A stretch of DNA of 64,000 nucleotides. Origin: Stanieria sp. NIES-3757. Its GTDB lineage: Bacteria > Cyanobacteriota > Cyanobacteriia > Cyanobacteriales > Xenococcaceae. Made by a program: the position numbers and the translations under genes. The DNA is taken from positions 2,232,001 to 2,296,000 of the forward strand of contig AP017375.1 in assembly GCA_002355455.1 (NCBI GenBank), given 5' to 3'. The notes below the pieces were generated by a model. The model was not told where the DNA came from and ran no database searches. It saw only the letters and a program-made list of their open reading frames with translations. This document shows positions 1 through 13,422 of this stretch, piece by piece. The first letter of the stretch is position 1. The number at the start of each line of letters is the position of its first letter.

Positions 1-1798
1 GCTGTTTAGCTACAACAGGTTTATCGACAAAGTCGTCTGCACCACTGGCAAAAACTTGATTGCGAATAGCTACGTTGTTATGAACACTCAGAAACATTAC
101 TGGTAATTTGCGCCAATAAGGATGAGTTCGCAGCACCTTACACAGTTCAATTCCGCTCAAGTGAGGCATTTCAATATCTAACACCAGCAGATTAGGGTTG
201 ACTGCTTGGAGGACATCCCAAAATTGCCGAGGATCGTGCAAGGTAGTGAGTTTGAATCCCCAAGGATGTAAGAGAGATGGTAAAACTTCTAATAATTCTA
301 AATCGTCATCTACGATCATAACTTTTTTGCCTTGAGAAGAACGCTGAAAAACTTCCTGGCAAAAACTGATTATTTCTGAGTGGGTTAGAGGTTGTTTAAG
401 ATAGAAATATCCTCCATGTCTAGCAACTTTGAGCCTGTCTTCAAAGCGATCACGATCTGCTAAAACAATCGTTGGAATAGATGGTTCGAGTAGACTAAAT
501 TCCGCAATTAAGGAAAAATTATCCCATTGAAAGGGAAGCTCGGATTCTGATTCGCTCAAGGTGAGTTTCAGCAAAACAGCATCGGGAAGTTGTTCTAGTG
601 ATTGTTCTTCGAGCCACATTCTAGTTGATTCAGGATTGGTTAAGACTAAGGTTTTAATACCTTTGCTGTTGGCATAGTCAATTAATTGTTCGCTAGATTT
701 AGGGTCAGGATCGATGATTAAGAGAAAAGGAGAATGTTCTCTCAGTTGACAAGCGATTTTGGGAAGAGTATTCTCTTCTGTAGCTAATTCTTGGCGTAAA
801 ACTTGAATAATAGCTTCCAATTGCCAGATTTTTTCTTGATTAATTTGTTCAGTTAATACTTGTTCTAATTCTCTAGCTAATTGAGAAGCTTCATCAAAAC
901 CAAAGAGTCCCAGATTGCCAGCTAAACTGTGAGCTGTTAACAAAGCAGTTTGGCGATCGCGTTCGCTAAAATTGCCTTGTTGCCAAGTTACAACCATTGT
1001 CTCTAAAGTTTCTAATTGTTGATGACTTTTGGAGCGATATTTTTCCCAAGCTACACTTAAAGCGTTTAAATGTCGCGATCGCTTGTTTTCTGGAGTTTCC
1101 AGTTCGACATTCAACTCTTCCTGGGGTAAAGATTTGAGGGAATAACCCCTACCAGGAACGGTTTCGATCAAATCTTCAGGTAAACCAGCTAGTTTTAATT
1201 TTTGTCGTAAATATCTTAGATGAGAACGAACAGTTGCTTCGGCTGGATATTCTGCCGATGACCATAAACTTTCAATAATTTCTTCAATGCTTAAAACTTC
1301 TTGACTATGACGCAAAAATAACTCTAATAAGCTGTATTCTTTAGCAGTCAGGGATATAGTTTCTCCTTGATAGGTCACTTCAGCGTTACAGGGATTGAGT
1401 TGTAATTCTCCCCAACTCAAGACAGGTAAAAAGTCACAGTTGAGACGACGCAATAAAGCACGGATCCGAGCCGTTAATTCGTCGATATCAAAAGGCTTAC
1501 AAATATAATCATCTGCTCCCGCATCAAGTCCTTTGATCTTATTTTGACTCCCGTGACGAGCGGTAAGTAACAAAATCGGCATTTCATAGCCATTAGCGCG
1601 AAAACGCTGACATAAACTAATCCCATCGAGCTTAGGCAAAGACCAATCGAGGATAATTAAATCGTAGTTATAGGTTGAACCATATAGCCAACCTTGTTCT
1701 CCATCAGTAACTGCATCTACGGCATAGTTTTGTTCTGCTAGACTTCTTGAAAGGACATCTATTAAAGTTTGATCATCATCAACTAATAAAATTCTCAT
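1..1798 (-). CDS. rcaC: RcaC-like response regulator (REC-winged helix-HPt-REC), C-terminus cut by window edge
   Basis: The gene starts at ATG 1798 and runs off the left edge after 599 residues. Modules in order: receiver (1-115, acidic pocket VDDD, phospho-acceptor Asp51), OmpR-type winged helix (about 125-222, ending in VPGRGYSL), HPt domain (about 240-340, motif TAHSLAGNLG with His290), a degenerate receiver-like linker (355-480) and a second receiver (from 491, VDDD, Asp541, ending near DKPVV at the edge). F. diplosiphon RcaC has the same order, a first acceptor also at Asp51, and about 650 residues, so roughly 50 residues are missing here. It lies 31 bp downstream of the RcaF-like gene. 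It should bind the L box at 8907-8924 and drive cpc and pcyA. Other four-module regulators exist in cyanobacteria; the name rests on architecture plus the L box. Confidence 0.8.
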   Translation of the reverse strand, partial: MRILLVDDDQTLIDVLSRSLAEQNYAVDAVTDGEQGWLYGSTYNYDLIILDWSLPKLDGISLCQRFRANGYEMPILLLTARHGSQNKIKGLDAGADDYICKPFDIDELTARIRALLRRLNCDFLPVLSWGELQLNPCNAEVTYQGETISLTAKEYSLLELFLRHSQEVLSIEEIIESLWSSAEYPAEATVRSHLRYLRQKLKLAGLPEDLIETVPGRGYSLKSLPQEELNVELETPENKRSRHLNALSVAWEKYRSKSHQQLETLETMVVTWQQGNFSERDRQTALLTAHSLAGNLGLFGFDEASQLARELEQVLTEQINQEKIWQLEAIIQVLRQELATEENTLPKIACQLREHSPFLLIIDPDPKSSEQLIDYANSKGIKTLVLTNPESTRMWLEEQSLEQLPDAVLLKLTLSESESELPFQWDNFSLIAEFSLLEPSIPTIVLADRDRFEDRLKVARHGGYFYLKQPLTHSEIISFCQEVFQRSSQGKKVMIVDDDLELLEVLPSLLHPWGFKLTTLHDPRQFWDVLQAVNPNLLVLDIEMPHLSGIELCKVLRTHPYWRKLPVMFLSVHNNVAIRNQVFASGADDFVDKPVVAKQ

Positions 1799-1829
1799 CC
1801 GTAACTAGAATCAACCTCCCGTAACTAAC

Positions 1830-2219
1830 TTAAATTTTCCATCGCAAAATAGAAGCAATTCGACTAGCAAGAGTCATCGAATTAAAAGGCTTAGTAATTA
1901 CCCCTGCTACTCCCAACCCTTGTAATTGATTTTTGTCCGCAGCTTGGATTTTAGCTGTGAGAAAAATCACTGGAATCGACTGAGTTTTAGGATTCGCTTG
2001 TAACTGAGAAAAGGTAGAAATACCATCCAACTCAGGCATCATGACATCAAGCAAAATAGCATCGGGTTTTTGAGTTTGGGCGACACTAATTCCTTCTAAA
2101 CCAGAAGAAGCAATCAATACTTGCCAACCAACTTCGATCTCAATTCCCACTTGCACCACTTCTTGAATAGTTTCTTCATCATCAATTAGTAAGATACATT
2201 TATCGTTAATGATTATCAC
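1830..2219 (-). CDS. rcaF: RcaF-like single-domain response regulator
   Basis: A stand-alone CheY-type receiver of 129 residues. It shows the acidic pocket IDDEE near the N-terminus, the phospho-acceptor Asp in ILLDVMMPELDG, the switch Thr in FLTAK, and the Lys in ITKPF. There is no output domain, so it must pass phosphate on rather than bind DNA. The start is GTG at 2219, 14 bp inside the 3' end of the upstream kinase gene, which indicates translational coupling. In F. diplosiphon RcaF is a small receiver that carries phosphate from RcaE to RcaC, and gene order and size agree with that here. The assignment rests on context, since the receiver fold alone is not specific. Confidence 0.75.
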   Translation of the reverse strand: MIIINDKCILLIDDEETIQEVVQVGIEIEVGWQVLIASSGLEGISVAQTQKPDAILLDVMMPELDGISTFSQLQANPKTQSIPVIFLTAKIQAADKNQLQGLGVAGVITKPFNSMTLASRIASILRWKI

Positions 2220-4374
2220 CCCCTTTTTGGATTAATGCAGGCAGAGTGAAATAAAAAGTACTGCCATCGCCTAAACAACTTTCTGCCCAAATTTTTCCGC
2301 CGTGTTCTTCAATAATGTGACGGCAAATAGCTAGTCCTAAACCAGTTCCACCTTTTTTACGAGAATCGGAAGAGTCTACTTGTTGAAAACGTTCAAAGAT
2401 ATTTTCTAGTTGATTGGCAGGAATTCCTTGTCCTTGATCTTTCACCTCAAAAGTAACGAAGGGAATCTCAATTTTTTGTCCTTGAGGTTCTAGTTTTGCC
2501 GATAACCAAACTGTACTATTAGAGGGAGAAAATTTAATGGCATTGCTTAATAGATTGGTAAGAGTTTGGACGATATAATCTCGGTCGGCCCAAACCACAA
2601 AAGCTACCGACTCAGCAAATAGCTTCACTCCGTGTTCTTGTGCCATTGTTTGCATCGTTTGGGCTGCTTCAATCATCAATTCGGTGGCTTTGCAGGCTTT
2701 TTTCTTCATTTTGATTTTGCCTGACTGAATACTTTGTAAGTCGAGGACGTTATTGACTAATCGCACTAACCGCTCAGTTTGTTCGTCGGCAATTCTCAAC
2801 ATTCGTTGTCCTTTATGAGAAAGATTGCCTAGTTTTCCTGTGGCAAGAATTTTGAGGGAACTATGAATCGAAGTCAGAGGAGTCCGAAGTTCATGACTAA
2901 CTACCGAAATAAACTCATCTTTCATCCGTTCAATTGCTTTGCGATCGCTAATATCACTACTGAGAGCAAAAAATCCTTGGACTCGATTTTGTTCTTGTTG
3001 GTTGAGGTGAGGGATATAGGTGACATTGAGGGAATGAACGCAGCCATCTTGAAAGGTGCTATCCTTTTCATAAGTAACCATTTGTCCTGATAGGGCTGTC
3101 TCGATATACTGACGAATCGTTTGATATTCTTCTTCACCGTGAACTTCTTGAAGATGGCAGCCATAAATCTTGATAGGAGAGAGTCCGAACCAAGTTTGAT
3201 AAGCTTCGTTATTAAAACGATAACATTGTTGTTTATCTACATAAGCAATTAACACGGGCAAACCATTGGCAATCAACCGTAACTGTTCTTCGCTGCGTCT
3301 TAAGGCTGCTTCTGCTTCGAGGCGATCATTTATTTCTTGTTGAAGGTTACTATTAACTTCCCGTAATTTAGCCGTCCGTTCCGTAACTAATTCTTCTAAG
3401 TTTTCTAATAACTCTGCTTGAGACAAAGCAATCCCAATTTGATCTGCCAACTGTTGCATCAATTCTAATTCAAAATCTGTCCAAGTTCTGGTGGTTTGAC
3501 ATTGATGAGCAATTAACAAACCCCAAAGAGGGTCGTTTTGTGATTTAAAGTTTTGCAGAATCGGTACTACCAATTTGGCTTGAACTTTCCATTCCTCCAT
3601 AAAGTCGATCAAACATTCAGCCAAACCCATCTCAGGATCGTGAACATCCGCGATCGCTTGTACTCTCCCGGCTGCGTACAGTTCTTGATAATCTTTGGGA
3701 AACACTTCTTCAGGAAATTCAATTCCTAAAATAGGCGCGTATTCAGGCAAGACGGCTTCACTAATTGGTTTCCCTGTGCCATTAGCCAACACTTGATAAA
3801 TTAAAACTCGGTCTGCTTTCAGAATTCTTTGGACTTCATTAACCGCAGTTTGAAGAATTTCTTTGAGTTGTAGCGATTGGCGAATTTTGAGGGTAACTTC
3901 GGAAAATAGCTTTACTCGTTGATGTTGTCGTTGCAATTCTTCTTCTGCTCGCTTGAGATTGGTCACATCTCGAAACACCAATAAGTTGTAATTGGGTAAT
4001 AACTCTTCAACTCGGCTATATTCTACCGTTTTAATCATCCCATTGGGATGGCGAAATTGAACTTCTTCCAAAGGGCAAGCAGAACAAGCTTGGTTTGATT
4101 TTGGGTGAGCTTTTCCTTGGTTGAGGAATAGTCCTTTTGATACAAAATTGGTAGACGCGCTTCGTTTACTTTTTTGCTCTAAAGGAGAGGCAAATAAGCT
4201 AACAATTGATTTGCCAATCAATTCTTCTCTCCTTAAACCAAATAGTTCGCAAGCCGAAGAATTTACTTCTACTAAGCGATTTTGGTGATCGATAATCGTA
4301 ATTGCTTCAAAGGAGCGTTCAAATATAGCTTGGAGGAATAATTTCTCTCCTTGAAATTTTCCTATTCGCTCCAT
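2206..4374 (-). CDS. rcaE: RcaE-like sensor histidine kinase (PAS-GAF-PAS-HisKA-HATPase)
   Basis: 722 residues. Residues 12-140 are a PAS domain followed by a coiled coil. Residues 155-320 are a phytochrome/cyanobacteriochrome-type GAF domain with Cys254 (LAECLIDF) at the usual bilin-attachment position, just before the AKLVVPIL strand and WGLLIAHQC. Residues 360-478 are a second PAS. HisKA carries His494 (SHELRTP), followed by an ATPase with N-box Asn611, DQGQG and GGTGLGLA. No membrane segment is seen, so it is cytoplasmic. F. diplosiphon RcaE is a green/red photoreceptor with GAF-PAS-kinase order; the extra N-terminal PAS is a difference. Leu rather than His follows the Cys. It overlaps rcaF by 14 bp and lies 152 bp downstream of pcyA. 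Bilin binding and spectral type are inferred. Confidence 0.75.
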   Translation of the reverse strand: MERIGKFQGEKLFLQAIFERSFEAITIIDHQNRLVEVNSSACELFGLRREELIGKSIVSLFASPLEQKSKRSASTNFVSKGLFLNQGKAHPKSNQACSACPLEEVQFRHPNGMIKTVEYSRVEELLPNYNLLVFRDVTNLKRAEEELQRQHQRVKLFSEVTLKIRQSLQLKEILQTAVNEVQRILKADRVLIYQVLANGTGKPISEAVLPEYAPILGIEFPEEVFPKDYQELYAAGRVQAIADVHDPEMGLAECLIDFMEEWKVQAKLVVPILQNFKSQNDPLWGLLIAHQCQTTRTWTDFELELMQQLADQIGIALSQAELLENLEELVTERTAKLREVNSNLQQEINDRLEAEAALRRSEEQLRLIANGLPVLIAYVDKQQCYRFNNEAYQTWFGLSPIKIYGCHLQEVHGEEEYQTIRQYIETALSGQMVTYEKDSTFQDGCVHSLNVTYIPHLNQQEQNRVQGFFALSSDISDRKAIERMKDEFISVVSHELRTPLTSIHSSLKILATGKLGNLSHKGQRMLRIADEQTERLVRLVNNVLDLQSIQSGKIKMKKKACKATELMIEAAQTMQTMAQEHGVKLFAESVAFVVWADRDYIVQTLTNLLSNAIKFSPSNSTVWLSAKLEPQGQKIEIPFVTFEVKDQGQGIPANQLENIFERFQQVDSSDSRKKGGTGLGLAICRHIIEEHGGKIWAESCLGDGSTFYFTLPALIQKGGDNH

Positions 4375-4526
4375 GACTAAAATATGTTTCTTAAAATTCT
4401 TAATTAAATTTTACTAAATTTTTTTACTAAAATTAAGCTTTCTTAAATCTATTTTTTAACCCAAATTAACCTGTATTACTCTTAATTTAAATTGTTGATG
4501 GTAAATAGTGAATTGGTAACTGATTA

Positions 4527-5270
4527 CTACGGAGTATCAAACAGCATTGTCGTCATATATCGCTCCGTCCATGCTTTCCCTAACGACTTTTCTAAGACTC
4601 GTCGAGTTTTGTCGTTCTGTTGCTGTTTAGCACAATAGTAATGGTGTCCTGCCAAAATTTCTTCTTGCTGAGCGAGAGAAGATACAGAAGCAGTAGTAAT
4701 TGCAATTTGACAGTGAAGAGTTATAAAGTGATTAACTTGTTTAAGAAACAAAGCTTCTTCTTGACTATTAGTCGGACGAACAAACAAACAAAATTCTGAA
4801 AAGATATCTCCCCAGGCAGGTAATTCGCGAGGTTGGTCAAATTGAACTGGAGGAAGATTGGCTAAAACCTGTTGATAATTTTGAGGTAAAGCACCCTGAC
4901 TATTTGCAGGAGATAAATCTACGATCGCAGCCCCAATCTGACCTTGACTACCTACTAAGTCTACTCCAAAAATAGGTAGAGGATAATTAGTACGAGGAAA
5001 CATGACACAATGGAGAATGTCTAAGCGATCGCCAACTCGGGCTAACTCCAAATGTAACTTGCGAAATTGGGAAGTTTGATAACAGCGATTTTCAATAATT
5101 AATTTTTCCCCTTCTAAATTTCCTTCAACATAACCAAGGTCTTCTGGTATGTCATAAGGAGATAAAGTAAGGTACTTTTGCCAATGTTCTTCAATAGAAT
5201 TGGCTAATTGATGAATTAAATAGTGCTGGCGTTCTCTGAGGGAGGATTGAATAGTAGCAACCATCGGCAC
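4527..5270 (-). CDS. pcyA: phycocyanobilin:ferredoxin oxidoreductase
   Basis: PcyA reduces biliverdin IXalpha by four electrons to phycocyanobilin using ferredoxin, giving the chromophore for phycocyanin and for cyanobacteriochromes. The 247 residues match the family length. The signature blocks DLGYVEG, IENRCYQT, LDILHCVMFP, WGDIFSEFC and NDKTRRVLEK are present. By alignment with the Synechocystis enzyme, catalytic His87 and Asp104 are conserved. The gene follows cpcD by 78 bp on the same strand, so chromophore synthesis and apoprotein can be co-transcribed. A strong hairpin lies in the gap. In F. diplosiphon pcyA is itself an L-box target; here it appears to sit behind the L box of the cpc operon. 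I saw no second L box directly upstream of pcyA. Confidence 0.97.
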   Translation of the reverse strand: MPMVATIQSSLRERQHYLIHQLANSIEEHWQKYLTLSPYDIPEDLGYVEGNLEGEKLIIENRCYQTSQFRKLHLELARVGDRLDILHCVMFPRTNYPLPIFGVDLVGSQGQIGAAIVDLSPANSQGALPQNYQQVLANLPPVQFDQPRELPAWGDIFSEFCLFVRPTNSQEEALFLKQVNHFITLHCQIAITTASVSSLAQQEEILAGHHYYCAKQQQNDKTRRVLEKSLGKAWTERYMTTMLFDTP

Positions 5271-5294
5271 TTCTCATTTCAATATGGTTAGGAT

Positions 5295-5341
5295 GTCATT
5301 TGCCCTTGGTACTTAATCACAAATACCCAAGGACAAATGAC
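5295..5341 (-). promoter_or_regulatory. 15-bp stem-loop between cpcD and pcyA
   Basis: The two arms (5295-5309 and 5327-5341) are complementary over 15 positions. The single mismatch on the plus strand becomes a G-U pair in the minus-strand transcript, so the RNA stem is complete, with a 17-nt loop. There is no U tract after it, so it is not a classical terminator. It could stabilise the cpc mRNA 3' end or set the pcyA to cpc ratio; this role is inferred. Confidence 0.6.
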
Positions 5342-5348
5342 TGATTAA

Positions 5349-5609
5349 TCATTCATCAGCATCATTATTTGCTGGCGCACCAAGAGGACGAATATTGACA
5401 ATCGTGCCTCCCATCCGAGTAATTCGCAGCATTTCTTCATTCATGCGATGGTAAGGAACTTGAATAAAAACACTGCCACTGGTGCGAAAAGAATAATTAT
5501 TACGAGCGGTTTCGTCGTTTTGTTTTAATCCAGTTACCTCATAAACAAAAATACGGTTGTCTGAAGGTGAACTAGATGATCTACCATTGAGTACAGATTG
5601 ACCCAACAT
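5349..5609 (-). CDS. cpcD: phycobilisome rod-capping linker CpcD
   Basis: A small basic linker of 86 residues matching the CpcD domain: a short N-terminal stretch, the VYEVTGL strand, FRTSGSVFIQVPY, and the closing MLRITRMGGTIVNIRPL. CpcD caps the core-distal end of phycocyanin rods. It is the fifth gene of the cpc operon, 85 bp after the second rod linker. The order B-A-linker-linker-D equals that of the red-light-induced cpc2 operon (cpcB2A2H2I2D2) of F. diplosiphon and of cpcBAC2C1D in Synechocystis. Confidence 0.93.
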   Translation of the reverse strand: MLGQSVLNGRSSSSPSDNRIFVYEVTGLKQNDETARNNYSFRTSGSVFIQVPYHRMNEEMLRITRMGGTIVNIRPLGAPANNDADE

Positions 5610-5694
5610 CTTGTGAATATCTCCTTTAAATTAAAGTTAAAAAAGTAGAGGCTACCAGGTCAGTTACTTTTGATCTTGACAGATAACTGCCAAC

Positions 5695-6555
5695 TTATGC
5701 CAAGGTAACACTCGCTACTTTACCGCCCATTTTGTTGATTTTTTGCAGGGTTGTTGATAGCTCTTCGTAAGGAACTAACAAAGCTCTACTAACACGGCGT
5801 ACTTTGGGATATCTTGGCAAATTCATTGCCGAAATTTCGATCCGATAGATACGACCCTCTTTGTTGGAGTTTCTAAAGGTACGCTCAGGAGTAAGTCCTT
5901 GACGAGAAGGACGATATGCCCAACCTCCACTACCGCCTGAAGGCGCAACTACCGCAGAAGCACTATTAAGAGCTAATTCTCTTGCTAAACGAGAAGTAGT
6001 ACCTGCTATTTGAGAGCGATCGCTATTGGCGTAACCTCGATACAGTTGGAACATACGAGTAAAGCCAACAGTTTTTTGTGCTGTTTGAGTGTTAAAACCG
6101 CGATAGTAGGGAACGATATTATCCCCAAAATTTTCTGCGTACTCTTCAGAGTCAATATAGGAGTCAATATCTGCTTCAAAGCCCTTTTCTTGATACAAAT
6201 CAAGATGGTAAATGACCTCAGATTCGTCATAGGGAGCGCGACCAAGTAAATGTTTGAGGTTTAACTCGATTACTCTGGTTTGGAAATTGTTGTAGAAAAA
6301 TTTTGTTCTGTATAGCTCTGATTTGGCTACAGCGCGAACAAAGTCACGTACTGTAATTGAGCCATTGCAAAGTAAAGATTCTGTTGCCTTCAGACGCTCA
6401 GAAGCCATAATATAATCGTTACCAAGCACTTGGCGATAAACTGCTTGGATCACGGCTTGGGCATCTGCTTGAGTCCAATTAGGACGTAATTCTAAGGGTT
6501 TACTGTCGTTAAAAGCAGAAACTCCTAGACGAGATGCTGCTGTAGTAATTGCCAC
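5695..6555 (-). CDS. cpcC: phycobilisome 32-kDa-class rod linker (second copy)
   Basis: A 286-residue rod linker. The N-terminal phycobilisome linker domain (about 20-180) shows [72 protein letters not shown] and [17 protein letters not shown] in pieces typical of the family. The C-terminal CpcD-like domain (about 230-285) includes RIEISAMN and [24 protein letters not shown]. It joins phycocyanin hexamers in the rod and tunes their spectrum. It is 44 bp downstream of its paralogue at 6600-7418; the first dozen residues are almost identical ([16 protein letters not shown]), indicating tandem duplication. It is equivalent to cpcC1 or cpcI2; I cannot tell which paralogue is core-proximal. Confidence 0.93.
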
Positions 6556-6599
6556 TCGTTCTTCTCCTGTAGCTCTAGATTTTTAAAAGTTGTTTGAGT

Positions 6600-7418
6600 C
6601 TAAGCATTAGTAATGCTAAGAACCTGACAGCCACTTTTATTTAATTTTTGTAAAGTTGCAGAAAGTCTGTCATAAGGAACAACGTATTCGTTGATACTGC
6701 GTCGCAATTGAGGTGCGCGTCCTCTAGCCCCTTGAGATACTCGTAAACGATAGGTTTTTCCTTGTTCATCGGCAGTCGTACCAGCAAGTGCTAAACCGAT
6801 CTGAGCATTACGAATCGGAGTTGCCACGTTGCGAGCCAATTCGTAAGTTAAACGAGGACTACCACTATTAGCTTGGGCGCGATCGCTGTTGGCATAACCT
6901 TGATAAAGTTGGAAAAGTCTGGTAAAACCGACAGTTTTTTGTCCTTTTTGGGTGTTAAAACCGCAATAATAAGGAACAACGTTATCCCCAAAGTTTTGGG
7001 TGTATTCTTCAGAATCAATGTAAGAATCGATATCTGCCTCAAAACCTTCATTTTGATAGCGATCAAGATGCTCAATGATCTCAGATTCATCGTAAGGAGC
7101 GCGACCGAGTAAGTGTTTGAAGTTTAACTCAATCGAACGAGGATGATAATTGTTGTAGAAAAATTTAGTTTTGTATAATTCTGATTTGGCTATTGCTCTG
7201 ACAAATTCTCTTACTGTAATTGAGCCATTGCATAAGAGAGACTCCGCACTAGTCAGACGTTCACACGCCATCAGATGCTCGTTGCCGAGAACTTGTCGGT
7301 ATGCTGCTCTAATCGCAACTTTGGCATCTTCGTTGCTCCAGTTGGGGCGCAATTCAACAGGTTTAGTTTCATTAAAAGCTGAAACTCCTAAACGAGATGC
7401 TGCTGTAGTAATTGCCAT
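6600..7418 (-). CDS. cpcC: phycobilisome 30-33-kDa-class rod linker (first copy)
   Basis: A rod linker of 272 residues from the ATG at 7418. I chose that start because AGGAGG lies 7 bases before it and the paralogue begins with the same residues; an in-frame extension to 7487 reads like leader sequence. The linker domain carries [42 protein letters not shown] and [12 protein letters not shown] in turn. The CpcD-like tail ends [21 protein letters not shown]. It lies 121 bp after cpcA. It is equivalent to cpcC2 or cpcH2. Confidence 0.93.
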
Positions 7419-7539
7419 TAGCGATCCTCCTAAAATTTTGCTAAATTTTTTTCTAAAAAATTGCTCGAAATTACAGGCAATTCTCAAACAAAAACTCTTG
7501 CTTAATCATTACCTGCTATTTCGAGCGACTAAAGCAACT

Positions 7540-8028
7540 CTAGCTTAGAGCGTTAATTGCATAATCGATGTAGGAGTTAGCTTCAGAAGCAGCATCACCG
7601 CTTAAACCGTGGTTAGCTTTGATGTACTTGAGAGCTTCAACATACCAGCTAGGAGATAAGTCGAAAGTGCTGTTGATTTCAGCAACACCTGCAATTAAGT
7701 ACTCATCCATAGGACCAGTACCGCCAGCAATTAAGCAGTAAGTAACCATGCGGAGATAGTAGCCGATATCACGCGCACACTTAGCTTTACCTTCGGGGGT
7801 AGAAGCATAGTTGCTACCTTGCATTTGAGTAGTGTAAGGGAATTTGTTGTAGACAGCTTGAGCTGCACCGTTAACTAAGCCTTGAGCGTTAGAAGATAAA
7901 GCTCTAGCTGCTTCTAAACCACTTTTAGCTTGACGTAAACGTCCAAAAGCGATTTGTAATTCGGTGCTGCTTAAGAAACGACCTTGAGAATCTGCTGCTG
8001 CTACTGCTTCGGTTAATGGAGTTTTCAT
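7540..8028 (-). CDS. cpcA: C-phycocyanin alpha subunit
   Basis: 162 residues, the standard length. It starts [20 protein letters not shown] and carries Cys84 in [15 protein letters not shown], the attachment site for one phycocyanobilin. It pairs with CpcB to form the alpha-beta monomer of the rod. It begins 86 bp after cpcB. No cpcE/cpcF lyase genes follow, so the alpha-84 lyase must be encoded elsewhere. It is a phycocyanin rather than phycoerythrocyanin subunit by overall similarity. Confidence 0.97.
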
Positions 8029-8114
8029 GATTGTAATTATCTTCCTATCTTTTGCTAAGTTTTCAAGAAATGTTGTTTGAAATTTCCAAACGAGCTTATA
8101 TCAGTGGTCTGGGC

Positions 8115-8633
8115 TTAACCTACTGCTGCTGCTGCTTGATCGAAGTAGCCAGCAATTTCAGACATTAAGGAACTGCAATCACCTTGAGTGATATTATTAC
8201 GGTCGTTAGCAATAGCGATCGCTGCTTCTTTCATTTTTTGTACGCCAGCAGCTACGGAACCACCAGGAACTCCTAAAGCTACATAAGTTTCACGTAAACC
8301 ATTGAGGCAACGGTCGTTAAGTACAGAAGCGTCACCAGTGAAGGTAGCGTAAGTTACATAGCGTAAGATGATTTCCATATCGCGTAAGCAAGCTGCCATA
8401 CGGCGGTTAGTATAAGCATTACCACCGGGAGCAATTAACTGAGGTTGTTCAGCAAATAGTGCGCGAGCAGCATTAGCTACGATAGCCGAAGCACTACCAG
8501 TAATGCGGTTAACAGCATCAATCCGCTTTAAACCATCTGCAACTACTTTGTCGAGAGCATCTAGTTGAGATGAGGAAACATAATCGCCACGAGCATCGGC
8601 TTGAGATACAACCCTAGTATATGCATCCAACAT
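8115..8633 (-). CDS. cpcB: C-phycocyanin beta subunit
   Basis: 172 residues, the exact family length. Cys82 ([23 protein letters not shown] region) and Cys153 (TQGDCSS) are the two bilin-attachment sites. Asn72 in GGNAY is the residue usually methylated by CpcM. The sequence agrees with CpcB across its length, unlike PecB of phycoerythrocyanin. An AGGAGA Shine-Dalgarno sequence lies 7-8 bases before the ATG. It is the first gene of the cpc-pcyA operon and has a leader of more than 270 bp behind an L box, so it is probably the red-light-inducible phycocyanin set. Confidence 0.97.
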
Positions 8634-9066
8634 TGAAAGTTTCTCCTGAATTTTGATTTGTATCCAATAAAATTTAGAAAAGCTGAATCCCTAACTTTCA
8701 GAGCTATCTTGAAAAGAGTTAATCAGCAGAACTCAATGCTTTAGTTTCTCAGTTAACTCAACAATGAAAGTAATGGTAATTCTTGAATTAGGAACTCAGC
8801 TAAGTCCTGAAGCAATTTCAAGACCTTGCGAGGCGTACAAAATCTGGAGTTTGTTCCAGAGGCAGCCCCATGACTTTTGGACTAATCATCATTCAATCAG
8901 GAACTTTGTGCAATTTTAGTGCAATTAGATGAGTAAATTTTAAACAGTTATGTTTTTTTGTAACAGAAGCTTAATAATTTCTGAAATTTTTCCCCAATAA
9001 TTTGGTTTGGTTTTTTGAATAAAAATTAATAATTAAATATTTAGGGCATTAAAAAAAATAAATCAA
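8634..9066 (-). promoter_or_regulatory. cpc operon promoter and long leader region
   Basis: This 433-bp gap contains no convincing gene. It holds the L-box direct repeat (8907-8924, listed separately). Just after it on the minus strand a weak -10-like GATGAT sits 17 bases after TTGCAC. The remaining roughly 270 bases to the cpcB ATG would be an untranslated leader, as is common for cpc operons. The promoter elements other than the L box are tentative. Confidence 0.5.
8907..8924 (-). promoter_or_regulatory. L box, RcaC-type operator upstream of cpcB
   Basis: On the minus strand the sequence is TTGCACT-AAAA-TTGCACA. The published RcaC-binding L box is TTGCACA-N4-TTGCACA, so one half-site is perfect, the other matches 6 of 7, and the spacer is exactly four. 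The element is oriented toward cpcB and ends 273 bp before its start codon. In F. diplosiphon L boxes occur upstream of cpc2 and pcyA and confer red-light activation through RcaC. An RcaC-like gene lies in the same window, which makes chance occurrence unlikely. Confidence 0.8.
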
Positions 9067-9789
9067 TTATTTTTGTTCGGATAACGGCTTTTCTATTTGA
9101 TTAACTTGATTACGCTGTTGTTTGGTGATATTTTTTGGATTTAATAAATATTCGGTGACTCCCCAGCCAAAAAATAAACCCAAAATAATCAGACTCATTG
9201 CCAGCTTGTTGGAAGTAAAATCACAAATTTTTACTGCATAGTCGCGCCACCGAGAGTGTTGCCTATCATTGAATTTAGGTGGATTTGATTGAGTAGAAAT
9301 TTGATGAACTTGGTTGAGCTTTAATAATTCTTCAGCAAAATCAGATGGCATATTATCATAAATTCTTTCTTGAAGAGCTTCAATAATTTCTCGCAAGGCA
9401 ATTAAATTAGCAATTTTTTCTTCTAAAACGCTCCAATGAGCCATTGAATGATCGAAACTCGTAAGTAAAGTTTCCATTCTCCAGTAAATTTGTTGATATT
9501 GAGACGAAAAAGCTTTATCTTTAAAATGCTCTTGTTGATTGCGATCCCAAGAAATAAACTCCTCGCTACCTTTTTTTAGAGCGATCGCTCTTATAGATTT
9601 AGGTTGAATAAACCTTTGATGAGCTTCTAGCTGTTCAAGTTGTTTTTGAAGCACTTCTAATTCTACAGGAACACATTCTAAATCTGATTGAAGAATTTCT
9701 AGTTGCTCTAAAATTAACAACCAGTGTCTGATAATGATTGTTAAAGTATTAAGATTTTGTTGTAAAATTTCATTTTGAGTTTGATTCAT
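9067..9789 (-). CDS. hypothetical coiled-coil protein with C-terminal membrane anchor
   Basis: About 240 residues; I do not recognise the family. ATG 9789 was preferred over the in-frame TTG at 9792. The N-terminal 60 residues are rich in Gln, Leu and Glu with heptad-like spacing (EQLEILQSDLE, LEVLQKQLEQLEAH), suggesting coiled coil. A middle helical region follows, then one hydrophobic segment around residues 197-216 (LAMSLIILGLFFGWGVTEYLL) and a basic or polar tail. It is probably a tail-anchored membrane protein facing the cytoplasm. It stands alone upstream of the cpc promoter and is transcribed in the same direction, 433 bp away. No function is proposed. Confidence 0.6.
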   Translation of the reverse strand: MNQTQNEILQQNLNTLTIIIRHWLLILEQLEILQSDLECVPVELEVLQKQLEQLEAHQRFIQPKSIRAIALKKGSEEFISWDRNQQEHFKDKAFSSQYQQIYWRMETLLTSFDHSMAHWSVLEEKIANLIALREIIEALQERIYDNMPSDFAEELLKLNQVHQISTQSNPPKFNDRQHSRWRDYAVKICDFTSNKLAMSLIILGLFFGWGVTEYLLNPKNITKQQRNQVNQIEKPLSEQK

Positions 9790-10152
9790 CAATTTTGAGT
9801 TGGATTAAATATTTTCGCTTTAGTCGAAAAAGATACTTCTATCTTTTAAAGTAGTTTTTTACTATTTAAAATACGATCTATCTCAGGTATGAAACCTAAG
9901 CTAATTTTCGCTTTTAATGCCAAACTGCTAGACCAAATTTTTTCAGAAGTTTCAACTAGTTTTTTGGTCAATTAATTAAAATAAGCCGATCTAAACCCAA
10001 AAATAGGATAATTTATTTGATCTAGCTTTTTGAAAATTTACTCTCAACTTTAACTTGATGGTCAATCAAAAAAACAATAGCCCTAAGAATAATTTCCTAG
10101 AGCTATATAAATTATTTAGTCGTAATTAACTAAAAATTAGTTGAGGTTGAGC
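9790..10152. other. AT-rich intergenic region
   Basis: No coding signal was seen. The right part carries a clear terminator (10068-10106) for the upstream minus-strand gene. The rest would contain the promoter of the coiled-coil gene at 9067-9789, but no motif stands out. Confidence 0.5.
10068..10106 (-). terminator. Rho-independent terminator of the acidic small-protein gene
   Basis: Read on the minus strand, a 13-bp stem (ATAGCTCTAGGAA with TTCTTAGGGCTAT, two G-U pairs) closes a four-base ATTA loop. After two bases it is followed by a run of seven U. It lies 47 bp past the stop codon of the gene at 10153-10476. Confidence 0.85.
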
Positions 10153-12939: not shown

Positions 12940-13422
12940 ATGGTATCTAGCAATGTTGATGCAAAAGTACAATCTGCATTGAGTGCTTATCAAAGATTAA
13001 GCACTGATGAAAAATTAGCTTTTCTATGGTACGTTTATACTAAAATGGGTGATTCAGTTACTCCCGCTGCCCCAGGCGCAGCAGCAGATCAAATTGCAGA
13101 AGGCTTATTTAATCAAGTCAAAGAATTATCCCATGAAGAACAATTAAATGTACAGCGTCAAATTATTGAAAAACAAGATTGTTTAATTTGTCGCGAATAC
13201 GGTTCACTTAGTGAAAATACTAAATTACTATTTTGGTATTATCTGGCTCAAGGAATGGAAGAAGGTATTATTATTCCAATGCCAGAAGATTATGAACCCA
13301 GTAGTAGTGTTCAACAATTGTTATCTGACATTGAAGGTAGCGATTTTGAACAGCAAATTACTTTCTTAAGAGAAGCAGTGATTGATGCTGGTCAAGAACC
13401 TAAATCAGGTGCAGGAATTTAA
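12940..13422 (+). CDS. helical carotenoid protein (free OCP N-terminal domain homologue)
   Basis: 160 residues homologous to the all-helical N-terminal, carotenoid-binding domain of orange carotenoid protein, with no C-terminal NTF2-like domain. Trp30 and Tyr33 (AFLWYVYTKMG) align with OCP Trp41 and Tyr44, and Trp99 (LLFWYYLAQGME) with Trp110. Such stand-alone HCPs bind a ketocarotenoid; depending on clade they quench singlet oxygen or phycobilisome fluorescence. The unusual internal stretch TPAAPGAAADQI matches the family linker. The gene is monocistronic with a compact hairpin just after it. The HCP clade cannot be fixed by eye. Confidence 0.88.
   Translation: MVSSNVDAKVQSALSAYQRLSTDEKLAFLWYVYTKMGDSVTPAAPGAAADQIAEGLFNQVKELSHEEQLNVQRQIIEKQDCLICREYGSLSENTKLLFWYYLAQGMEEGIIIPMPEDYEPSSSVQQLLSDIEGSDFEQQITFLREAVIDAGQEPKSGAGI

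Follow-up and report, generated by a model that had tools for sequence, protein, structure and literature searches.

The 64,000-nucleotide window analysed here (Stanieria sp. NIES-3757, contig AP017375.1, positions 2,232,001 to 2,296,000 of the forward strand) begins with a chromatic acclimation locus that is probably a red-light-on phycocyanin unit run by the neighbouring RcaE-RcaF-RcaC relay. A single promoter with one L box, the predicted binding site of the regulator RcaC, would serve the cpc2 antenna operon and, by read-through, the bilin reductase gene pcyA2. The RcaEFC relay, the L boxes and type 3 chromatic acclimation (CA3) are established, and the layout with one L box is a variant. 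The features of the locus are as follows, with positions in the window.

8907 to 8924, minus strand: L box TTGCACT-AAAA-TTGCACA, predicted RcaC site, one mismatch to TTGCACA-N4-TTGCACA
8891 to 8896, minus strand: -10-like hexamer TTGAAT, starting 10 nt downstream of the L box, in a fixed place in the promoters of clade A (the RcaE lineage of the window, see below); presumptive -10 element
8843 to 8860, minus strand: hairpin resembling a terminator, with a T-rich tail, placed between L box and start codon in the cpcB leader
7540 to 8652, minus strand: tract from the cpcB leader to the cpcA stop with 94% identity to the genome's own cpc1, read as gene conversion
8115 to 8633, minus strand: cpcB (phycocyanin beta, cpc2 operon), over the NCBIfam equivalog cut-off
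7540 to 8028, minus strand: cpcA (phycocyanin alpha, cpc2 operon), over the NCBIfam equivalog cut-off, protein identical to the cpc1 copy
6600 to 7418, minus strand: rod linker, cpcH-like (PF00427 and PF01383)
5695 to 6555, minus strand: rod linker, cpcI-like (PF00427 and PF01383)
5349 to 5609, minus strand: cpcD rod-capping linker (NF058509, 128.5 bits, cut-off 80)
5275 to 5355, minus strand: hairpin separating cpcD from pcyA (-28.1 kcal/mol, z -4.8), without T tract
4527 to 5270, minus strand: pcyA2, CA3-linked PcyA paralogue (PRK02816, 346.7 bits, cut-off 206), without an L box of its own
2206 to 4374, minus strand: rcaE, PAS-GAF-PAS-HisKA-HATPase sensor kinase (Cys254; triad Glu223/Leu255/Lys267; phospho-His 494)
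1830 to 2219, minus strand: rcaF, single receiver (Asp58), overlapping rcaE by 14 bp
1 to 1798, minus strand: rcaC, REC-wHTH-HPt-REC regulator (Asp51, His290, Asp541), running past window base 1

Domain and equivalog scans bore out the minus-strand order that an earlier note, made from the bare letters of the window, had given (cpcB, cpcA, two linkers, cpcD, pcyA, kinase, receiver, regulator) and, together with that order, the RcaE-RcaF-RcaC-like relay architecture it had proposed, in which a single receiver and a REC-wHTH-HPt-REC regulator adjoin rcaE. The window edge cuts the last 10 codons (32 bases) of rcaC, and flanking DNA completes an open reading frame (ORF) of 609 residues. The genome comprises 5,463,308 bases in two contigs, of which C1 has 5,319,768. 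The gene order of the window recurs uninterrupted in 14 other clade A genomes and with inserted genes or long gaps in a further five; given this recurrence, the arrangement is more than chance.

The sensor is of the RcaE type, as the earlier note had claimed. In a tree of 134 GAF domains, which like all trees reported here was built by a quick method without bootstrap, the window kinase falls inside an RcaE clade of 69 rows (SH-aLRT support 93) together with the RcaE of the PDB. CcaS-like and RfpA-like kinases, so labelled from their neighbouring genes, fall in separate groups of 21 and 15 rows (97 each), a placement by which CcaS and RfpA were rejected as identities of the kinase. Against solved structures the GAF domain reached 276.4 bits with entry 8k9o and 236.6 bits with RcaE (7ckv), the next solved protein scoring 130; the title of 8k9o says only 'histidine kinase', and its letters are the same as those of 7ckv in the overlap. 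In the printed alignment the chromophore Cys254 has Leu255 directly after it, while the remaining places of the protochromic triad are taken by Glu223 and Lys267. The Cys and the Glu/Leu/Lys columns are invariant in 17 of 17 rows; the triad was located by residue numbers that we take to be those of RcaE, and the letters do align with the solved protein. Of 388 genomes sampled from the order, 39, Stanieria included, have a GAF match of at least 262 bits, and the next match has 226.

The L box before cpcB is a conserved candidate for the RcaC site that the earlier note had implied by its parallel with F. diplosiphon. Sites with at most two mismatches precede cpcB2 in 20 of 21 clade A loci (21 of 21 at up to three), in one orientation throughout, compared with 2 of 420 shuffled promoters; 28 clade A loci were given, five having no cpcB on the stretch and two less than 200 bp upstream, and the L098 row represents the inner of two cpc copies, both with an L box. 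Outside clade A the L box stands before cpcB2 in 13 of 13 genomes after removal of duplicate and misplaced rows from an uncleaned 'type B' set of 17, in which two genomes were doubled and two belonged to clade A (L198, L200). The sole cpcB match of G329, a genome not in that set, has no L box (L210, in the cpcB1 set), and L204, the lone row of the cpcB1 set to carry an L box, probably represents a cpc2 copy. The exact pattern TTGCAC-N5-TTGCACA was found at 53 sites across the 40 genomes searched (32 of which have one), and the reversed pattern at none; its only occurrence in the Stanieria genome is at the cpcB2 promoter. Twenty-nine of these sites lie before listed cpcB genes and three more before the cpcB2 of L260, L262 and L275 (G388, G389 and G390). 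The remainder include some at cpeC and pcyA outside clade A and some of no assigned role, five of them in clade A (G249, G263, G307, G388, G390).

By itself the window L box is not significant genome-wide, as at up to three mismatches the window holds 2 sites and shuffled sequences a mean of 7. Its weight comes from position and conservation and not from the match alone. In clade A the hexamer starting 10 nt after the L box is TTGAAT or a near variant, and TTATAT in Mastigocoleus. This spacing resembles that of PhoB-type activators, and RcaC carries the same kind of DNA-binding domain. A second L-box-like site with one mismatch (L023:7634-7651, C1:1662633), at the start of a 666-residue ORF, may be due to chance. 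More than one L box was seen before the cpcB genes of G135, G263 and G068, and a third cpcB match in some clade A genomes (L098, L209, G068:C184).

In the available part of PMC8256508, phosphorylated RcaC is described as binding L boxes and activating cpc2 and pcyA, while an L box in the opposite orientation leads to repression of pebAB. On this model, RcaE of the window, with its predicted phycocyanobilin-binding green/red GAF domain, would phosphorylate RcaF and then RcaC in red light. The target of phosphorylated RcaC would be the one L box, whose two 7-bp half sites recur at an 11-bp interval and which stands 10 nt ahead of the -10-like element of cpcB. The activated transcript would contain cpcB, cpcA, the two linkers and cpcD and, by read-through, pcyA2, whereby apoprotein and pigment enzyme would rise together; weaker read-through into rcaEFC might provide positive feedback. 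In green light the relay would be off.

The RcaE clade consists of two main groups of 33 rows each, one containing the window kinase (support 98, here clade A) and the other the RcaE of the PDB (92), with three rows outside both. Among the matches listed, clade A comprises 28 distinct genomes: the family of the window, Moorena bouillonii, two Mastigocoleus genomes, Calothrix sp. MO_167.B12 and a few others. A corresponding split was seen in the RcaC tree (26 rows, 4 of 30 genomes having no RcaC row), with a long branch of 0.8 between the lineages (support 100), and the RcaC of clade A is mostly 39-45% identical to those outside it. The locus layout could be judged in 24 of the 28 genomes; the other four (G259, G263, G214, G307) are cut by contig ends and present no conflict. 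In 23 of these 24 loci the cpc2 genes share a strand with rcaE-rcaF-rcaC and stand upstream of them, and in 18 of the 23 no other antenna gene or long gap intervenes. Two extra phycobiliprotein-like genes intervene in G019, G217 and G233, a further cpc set in G135, and gaps of 0.7-1 kb plus a linker-like piece in Calothrix; pcyA or a remnant of it (in G233) is present in 20 of the 23. Outside clade A the usual order, where enough sequence is available, is rcaEFC-pcyA-cpc2, several loci having a divergent cpeC-D-S-T-R operon on the other side. This different order, together with the exceptional genome G163, rules out that every RcaE locus shares the layout of the window. Extra phycobiliprotein-like genes between pcyA2 and rcaE were noticed in five clade A loci (L078:6446-7537, L077, L084, L086, L098); for L077 only the rcaE side of the sequence is available, and the scanned genes of L078 are ApcA-like and ApcB-like, under the equivalog cut-offs.

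The two lineages differ in promoter wiring as well. An L box of its own, with at most two mismatches, precedes pcyA in 17 of 17 loci outside clade A versus 0 of 20 pcyA2 genes within it (row L104, with a short upstream region, is excluded). The same search gave 0 of 21 for housekeeping pcyA and 0 of 22 for pcyA from genomes without an RcaE-level GAF. The lack of an own L box in clade A is as expected if pcyA moved under the cpc2 promoter, and three control sites appear to have become one. Fremyella diplosiphon/Tolypothrix CA3 shares with the window the sensor clade, the order and domains of the relay, the L box at cpc2, a second cpc operon and phycoerythrin genes elsewhere. It belongs to the other sub-lineage, with rcaEFC-pcyA-cpc2 and separate L boxes, whereas clade A has cpc2-pcyA-rcaEFC on one strand and no good L box at pcyA or cpeC; Fremyella is represented here only by the RcaE GAF of the PDB. 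We tentatively propose, at somewhat less than even probability, that clade A is a distinct chromatic acclimation type, in which RcaEFC directly controls only the operon of phycocyanin and PcyA2 through one L box, phycoerythrin lies outside direct RcaC control, and the unit has moved among Pleurocapsales-like, Moorena-like and heterocystous hosts.

The competing possibility, that the locus belongs to a canonical, full CA3 in which red light represses phycoerythrin too, by way of degenerate RcaC sites or by an indirect (Cgi-like or CpeR-level) route, is a serious one that falls a little short of an even chance. The genome search found what the earlier note had predicted, a second cpc operon (cpc1) and phycoerythrin genes elsewhere: cpeBA at C1:3,588 kb, cpeC-cpeD-cpeS-cpeT at C1:2,437-2,441 kb, beside an ORF that we take to be CpeR-like, and pebA-pebB at C1:125-127 kb. 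Fremyella possesses a second, RcaC-independent green-light system, which also favours this possibility. RcaE was counted in 27 of 65 genomes, all 27 able to make phycoerythrobilin, in the part of PMC9415938 that was available. A three-mismatch L-box-like site lies 148 bp before Stanieria cpeB, a quality that shuffled DNA often yields, and the best cpeC sites of clade A also have three mismatches (G086, G198). Near Stanieria cpeC, cpeBA and pebAB no L box with two or fewer mismatches was found. Within 600 bp of cpeC such a site was seen in none of 23 clade A rows (none of 21 without G163, beside cpcB1, and G280, a partial match, both probably other linkers) and in 3 of 600 shuffles. Outside clade A, 4 of 7 genomes have one, inverted and located at -275 to -279. 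Direct RcaC repression of phycoerythrin, half of the Fremyella circuit, is not visible because the cpe and peb genes have no good L box, and indirect control of phycoerythrin is possible. The earlier description of a complete CA3-type circuit is thus not supported: the window holds a real RcaEFC locus whose CA3 physiology is unproven, since two Fremyella-type features, an L box at pcyA and an inverted L box at a phycoerythrin operon, are lacking at up to two mismatches.

The distribution of clade A across hosts bears on the suggestion in the earlier note that the locus is a movable module. The 11 sampled Nostocales (those with family code f33, which was read as Nostocales, together with Mastigocoleus and Calothrix) form one clade in the ApcE tree (98), and in the RcaE and RcaC trees Mastigocoleus and Calothrix MO_167.B12 group with clade A. 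Constraining the Nostocales together was rejected by the approximately unbiased test for RcaE (p 4e-5) and for RcaC (p 2e-45, 9 Nostocales rows); the family of the window as one clade was rejected in RcaE (p 0.008), and clade A as one clade was rejected weakly in ApcE (p 0.0455). The M. testarum assembly, at 12.7 Mb, may be impure, and a Mastigocoleus metagenome-assembled genome has the same locus. Transfer of the module is the simpler reading with which this conflict is consistent. The idea of mobility thus gains support from the trees, although the tests cannot separate transfer from differential loss. An ancient duplication of the rca locus followed by differential loss, to which we give roughly one chance in three, would also account for the long RcaC branch between the lineages; it sits poorly with the single GAF match of at least 262 bits in each of the 39 RcaE genomes and with the rejection, in RcaE and RcaC, of a Nostocales group that ApcE recovers, and less strongly with the weak rejection of clade A in ApcE.

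Several observations weigh against a single read-through unit switched on by red light. The window L box has one mismatch, and the direction of kinase activity is taken from what could be seen of PMC8256508, on other strains. The terminator-like site at 8843-8860 stands in the cpcB leader, in a region with 11 such sites in total versus 6.9 (standard deviation 2.9) in shuffles; it is possibly an attenuator. A strong hairpin (z -4.8) separates cpcD from pcyA, and there would be room for further promoters in the gaps that precede pcyA (about 80 bp) and rcaE (about 150 bp). G249 and both Mastigocoleus genomes keep the layout without pcyA, and in G163 cpc2 with its L box lies about 20 kb from rcaE. 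The hairpin and the two gaps would suit an arrangement in which pcyA2 and rcaEFC have their own promoters, the hairpin ends the cpc2 transcript and adjacency reflects co-inheritance only. This arrangement is less likely than not, as no T tract follows the hairpin and no minus-strand terminator was called there, the sister species (G086) has a different fold between cpcD and pcyA (z -3.1), and pcyA2 has no L box although loci outside clade A keep one. The hairpin may instead be an attenuator, stabilise the mRNA or tune pcyA down. No minus-strand terminator-like site was found by the terminator scan between pcyA and rcaE, and a promoter scan of the region was uninformative (17 matches versus 20.5 in shuffles).

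That the kinase is of CcaS type or another cyanobacteriochrome with a different target is very improbable, for although the genome has 49 related GAF matches (the kinase's own included), the GAF tree and the score gap below 262 bits speak against it. CcaS-CcaR systems (CA1/CA2, labels from neighbouring genes) likewise combine a green/red cyanobacteriochrome and an OmpR-type regulator with antenna linker genes, and differ in their separate GAF group, in a regulator that matches RcaC over about 220 residues only and in the absence of a matched RcaF-like gene right beside them. In RfpA-RfpC-RfpB systems of far-red light photoacclimation (FaRLiP, CA6; L303, L304, L307, label again from neighbours), RcaC-like and RcaF-like genes also accompany a related kinase; the differences are the separate GAF group and the residue after the Cys, His in the accessible text of PMC9415938 and Leu in the window kinase. 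As a separate observation, the RcaC-like and RcaF-like genes flank the RfpA-like kinase in these three loci, and the FaRLiP relay looks related to the RcaEFC relay. Pseudanabaena sp. SR411, in which CA3 was measured, has rca genes near phycoerythrin and bilin synthase genes, as far as PMC11377992 was available; close proximity of Rca regulators and pigment genes is thus shared, the neighbours in Stanieria being cpc2 and pcyA2.

The bilin reductase gene of the locus has a history of its own. Four bilin reductases are encoded in the Stanieria genome, namely PebA, PebB and two PcyA. PcyA2 scores over the equivalog cut-off, matches a solved PcyA over nearly its whole length and is a putative phycocyanobilin:ferredoxin oxidoreductase. 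At least two pcyA matches were found in 32 of the 39 RcaE genomes, some of the second ones (G259, G214) being fragments cut by contig ends; among 25 genomes chosen for lacking an RcaE-level GAF, one has two pcyA, 22 have one and two have none. In a tree of 82 pcyA sequences (L233 and L090 excluded as partial), one branch (support 85, not starred) divides 38 CA3-linked sequences and the second copy of the draft genome G254 (940 contigs) from the 43 others. Judged by this tree, the CA3-linked pcyA is an old paralogue of the housekeeping gene. In L269 and L270, whose RcaE is closest to that of Fremyella, the regulated pcyA beside the rca genes would belong to the same CA3-linked line, which forms part of the tentative proposal of a distinct type. 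Three genomes of genus g41 have a single pcyA each, all in the CA3-linked group. A single pcyA match, located away from the rca locus, was found in each of G163, G233 and G249; the one in G163 groups with the housekeeping sequences, those of G233 and G249 are absent from the tree, and G233 retains the pcyA2 remnant. The earlier note had counted pcyA among the targets of the circuit; pcyA2 does lie beside the relay, yet without its own L box and as a paralogue rather than the only pcyA of the genome.

The phycocyanin subunit genes of Stanieria have been homogenised between operons. Similarity of cpc2 to cpc1 starts 19 bases before cpcB and ends at the cpcA stop, the linkers being 65-75% identical and the promoters giving no alignment. 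Between the two operons, cpcB/cpcA DNA identity is 68-80% in 20 of 23 genomes, 96-98% in Stanieria and G086 and about 89-90% in G163, with the G135 row mixing two cpc copies. In the protein tree the cpc2 subunits of Stanieria and G163 are separated from the other cpc2 sequences and cluster with cpc1 from the same genome or genus. Comparison of two Stanieria genomes gave 19 cpcA sites that group copies within a genome versus one that groups orthologues, a pattern indicating that exchange continued after the species split, at least in cpcA; the numbers for cpcB were 8 and 12. Conversion of cpc2 by cpc1 is the likelier direction. The near-identical cpcBA predicts that phycocyanin subunits have no red-light-specific function in Stanieria, which would be left to promoter and linkers.

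A literature search, to which most subscription papers were inaccessible, leaving novelty unproven, revealed no account of a layout with one L box, of a CA3-linked line of PcyA or of cpcBA conversion, and nothing on point for Stanieria chromatic acclimation, two pcyA copies or cpc gene conversion; nor are the layout, the PcyA line and the conversion mentioned in the available portion of PMC10151467, on PcyA origins. Chromatic acclimation is classed by the pigments that change, with Fremyella as the template, and the relay studied here exists in two deep lineages whose promoters are wired differently. The contrast between up to three L boxes per locus and one allows tests of which targets the response needs and of the way in which a regulon contracts to an operon. 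The existence of a CA3-linked PcyA paralogue points to a duplicated supply of pigment, besides that of apoprotein, for the light-colour response, and a red-light unit that is self-contained, about 9 kb long and served by one promoter would be an attractive transferable switch.

Directly upstream of the cpcB promoter lies an ORF of 241 residues without a Pfam match (window 9067-9792, minus strand), whose only relative (72%) matched in the loci inspected is in G086, at the same position. A tandem pair of MpsC-domain genes (PF10057; 11166-12068, plus strand) stands beside the locus, and a stand-alone N-terminal domain of the orange carotenoid protein (Carot_N, 203 bits; 12940-13422, plus strand) is encoded about 4 kb upstream of the antenna operon.

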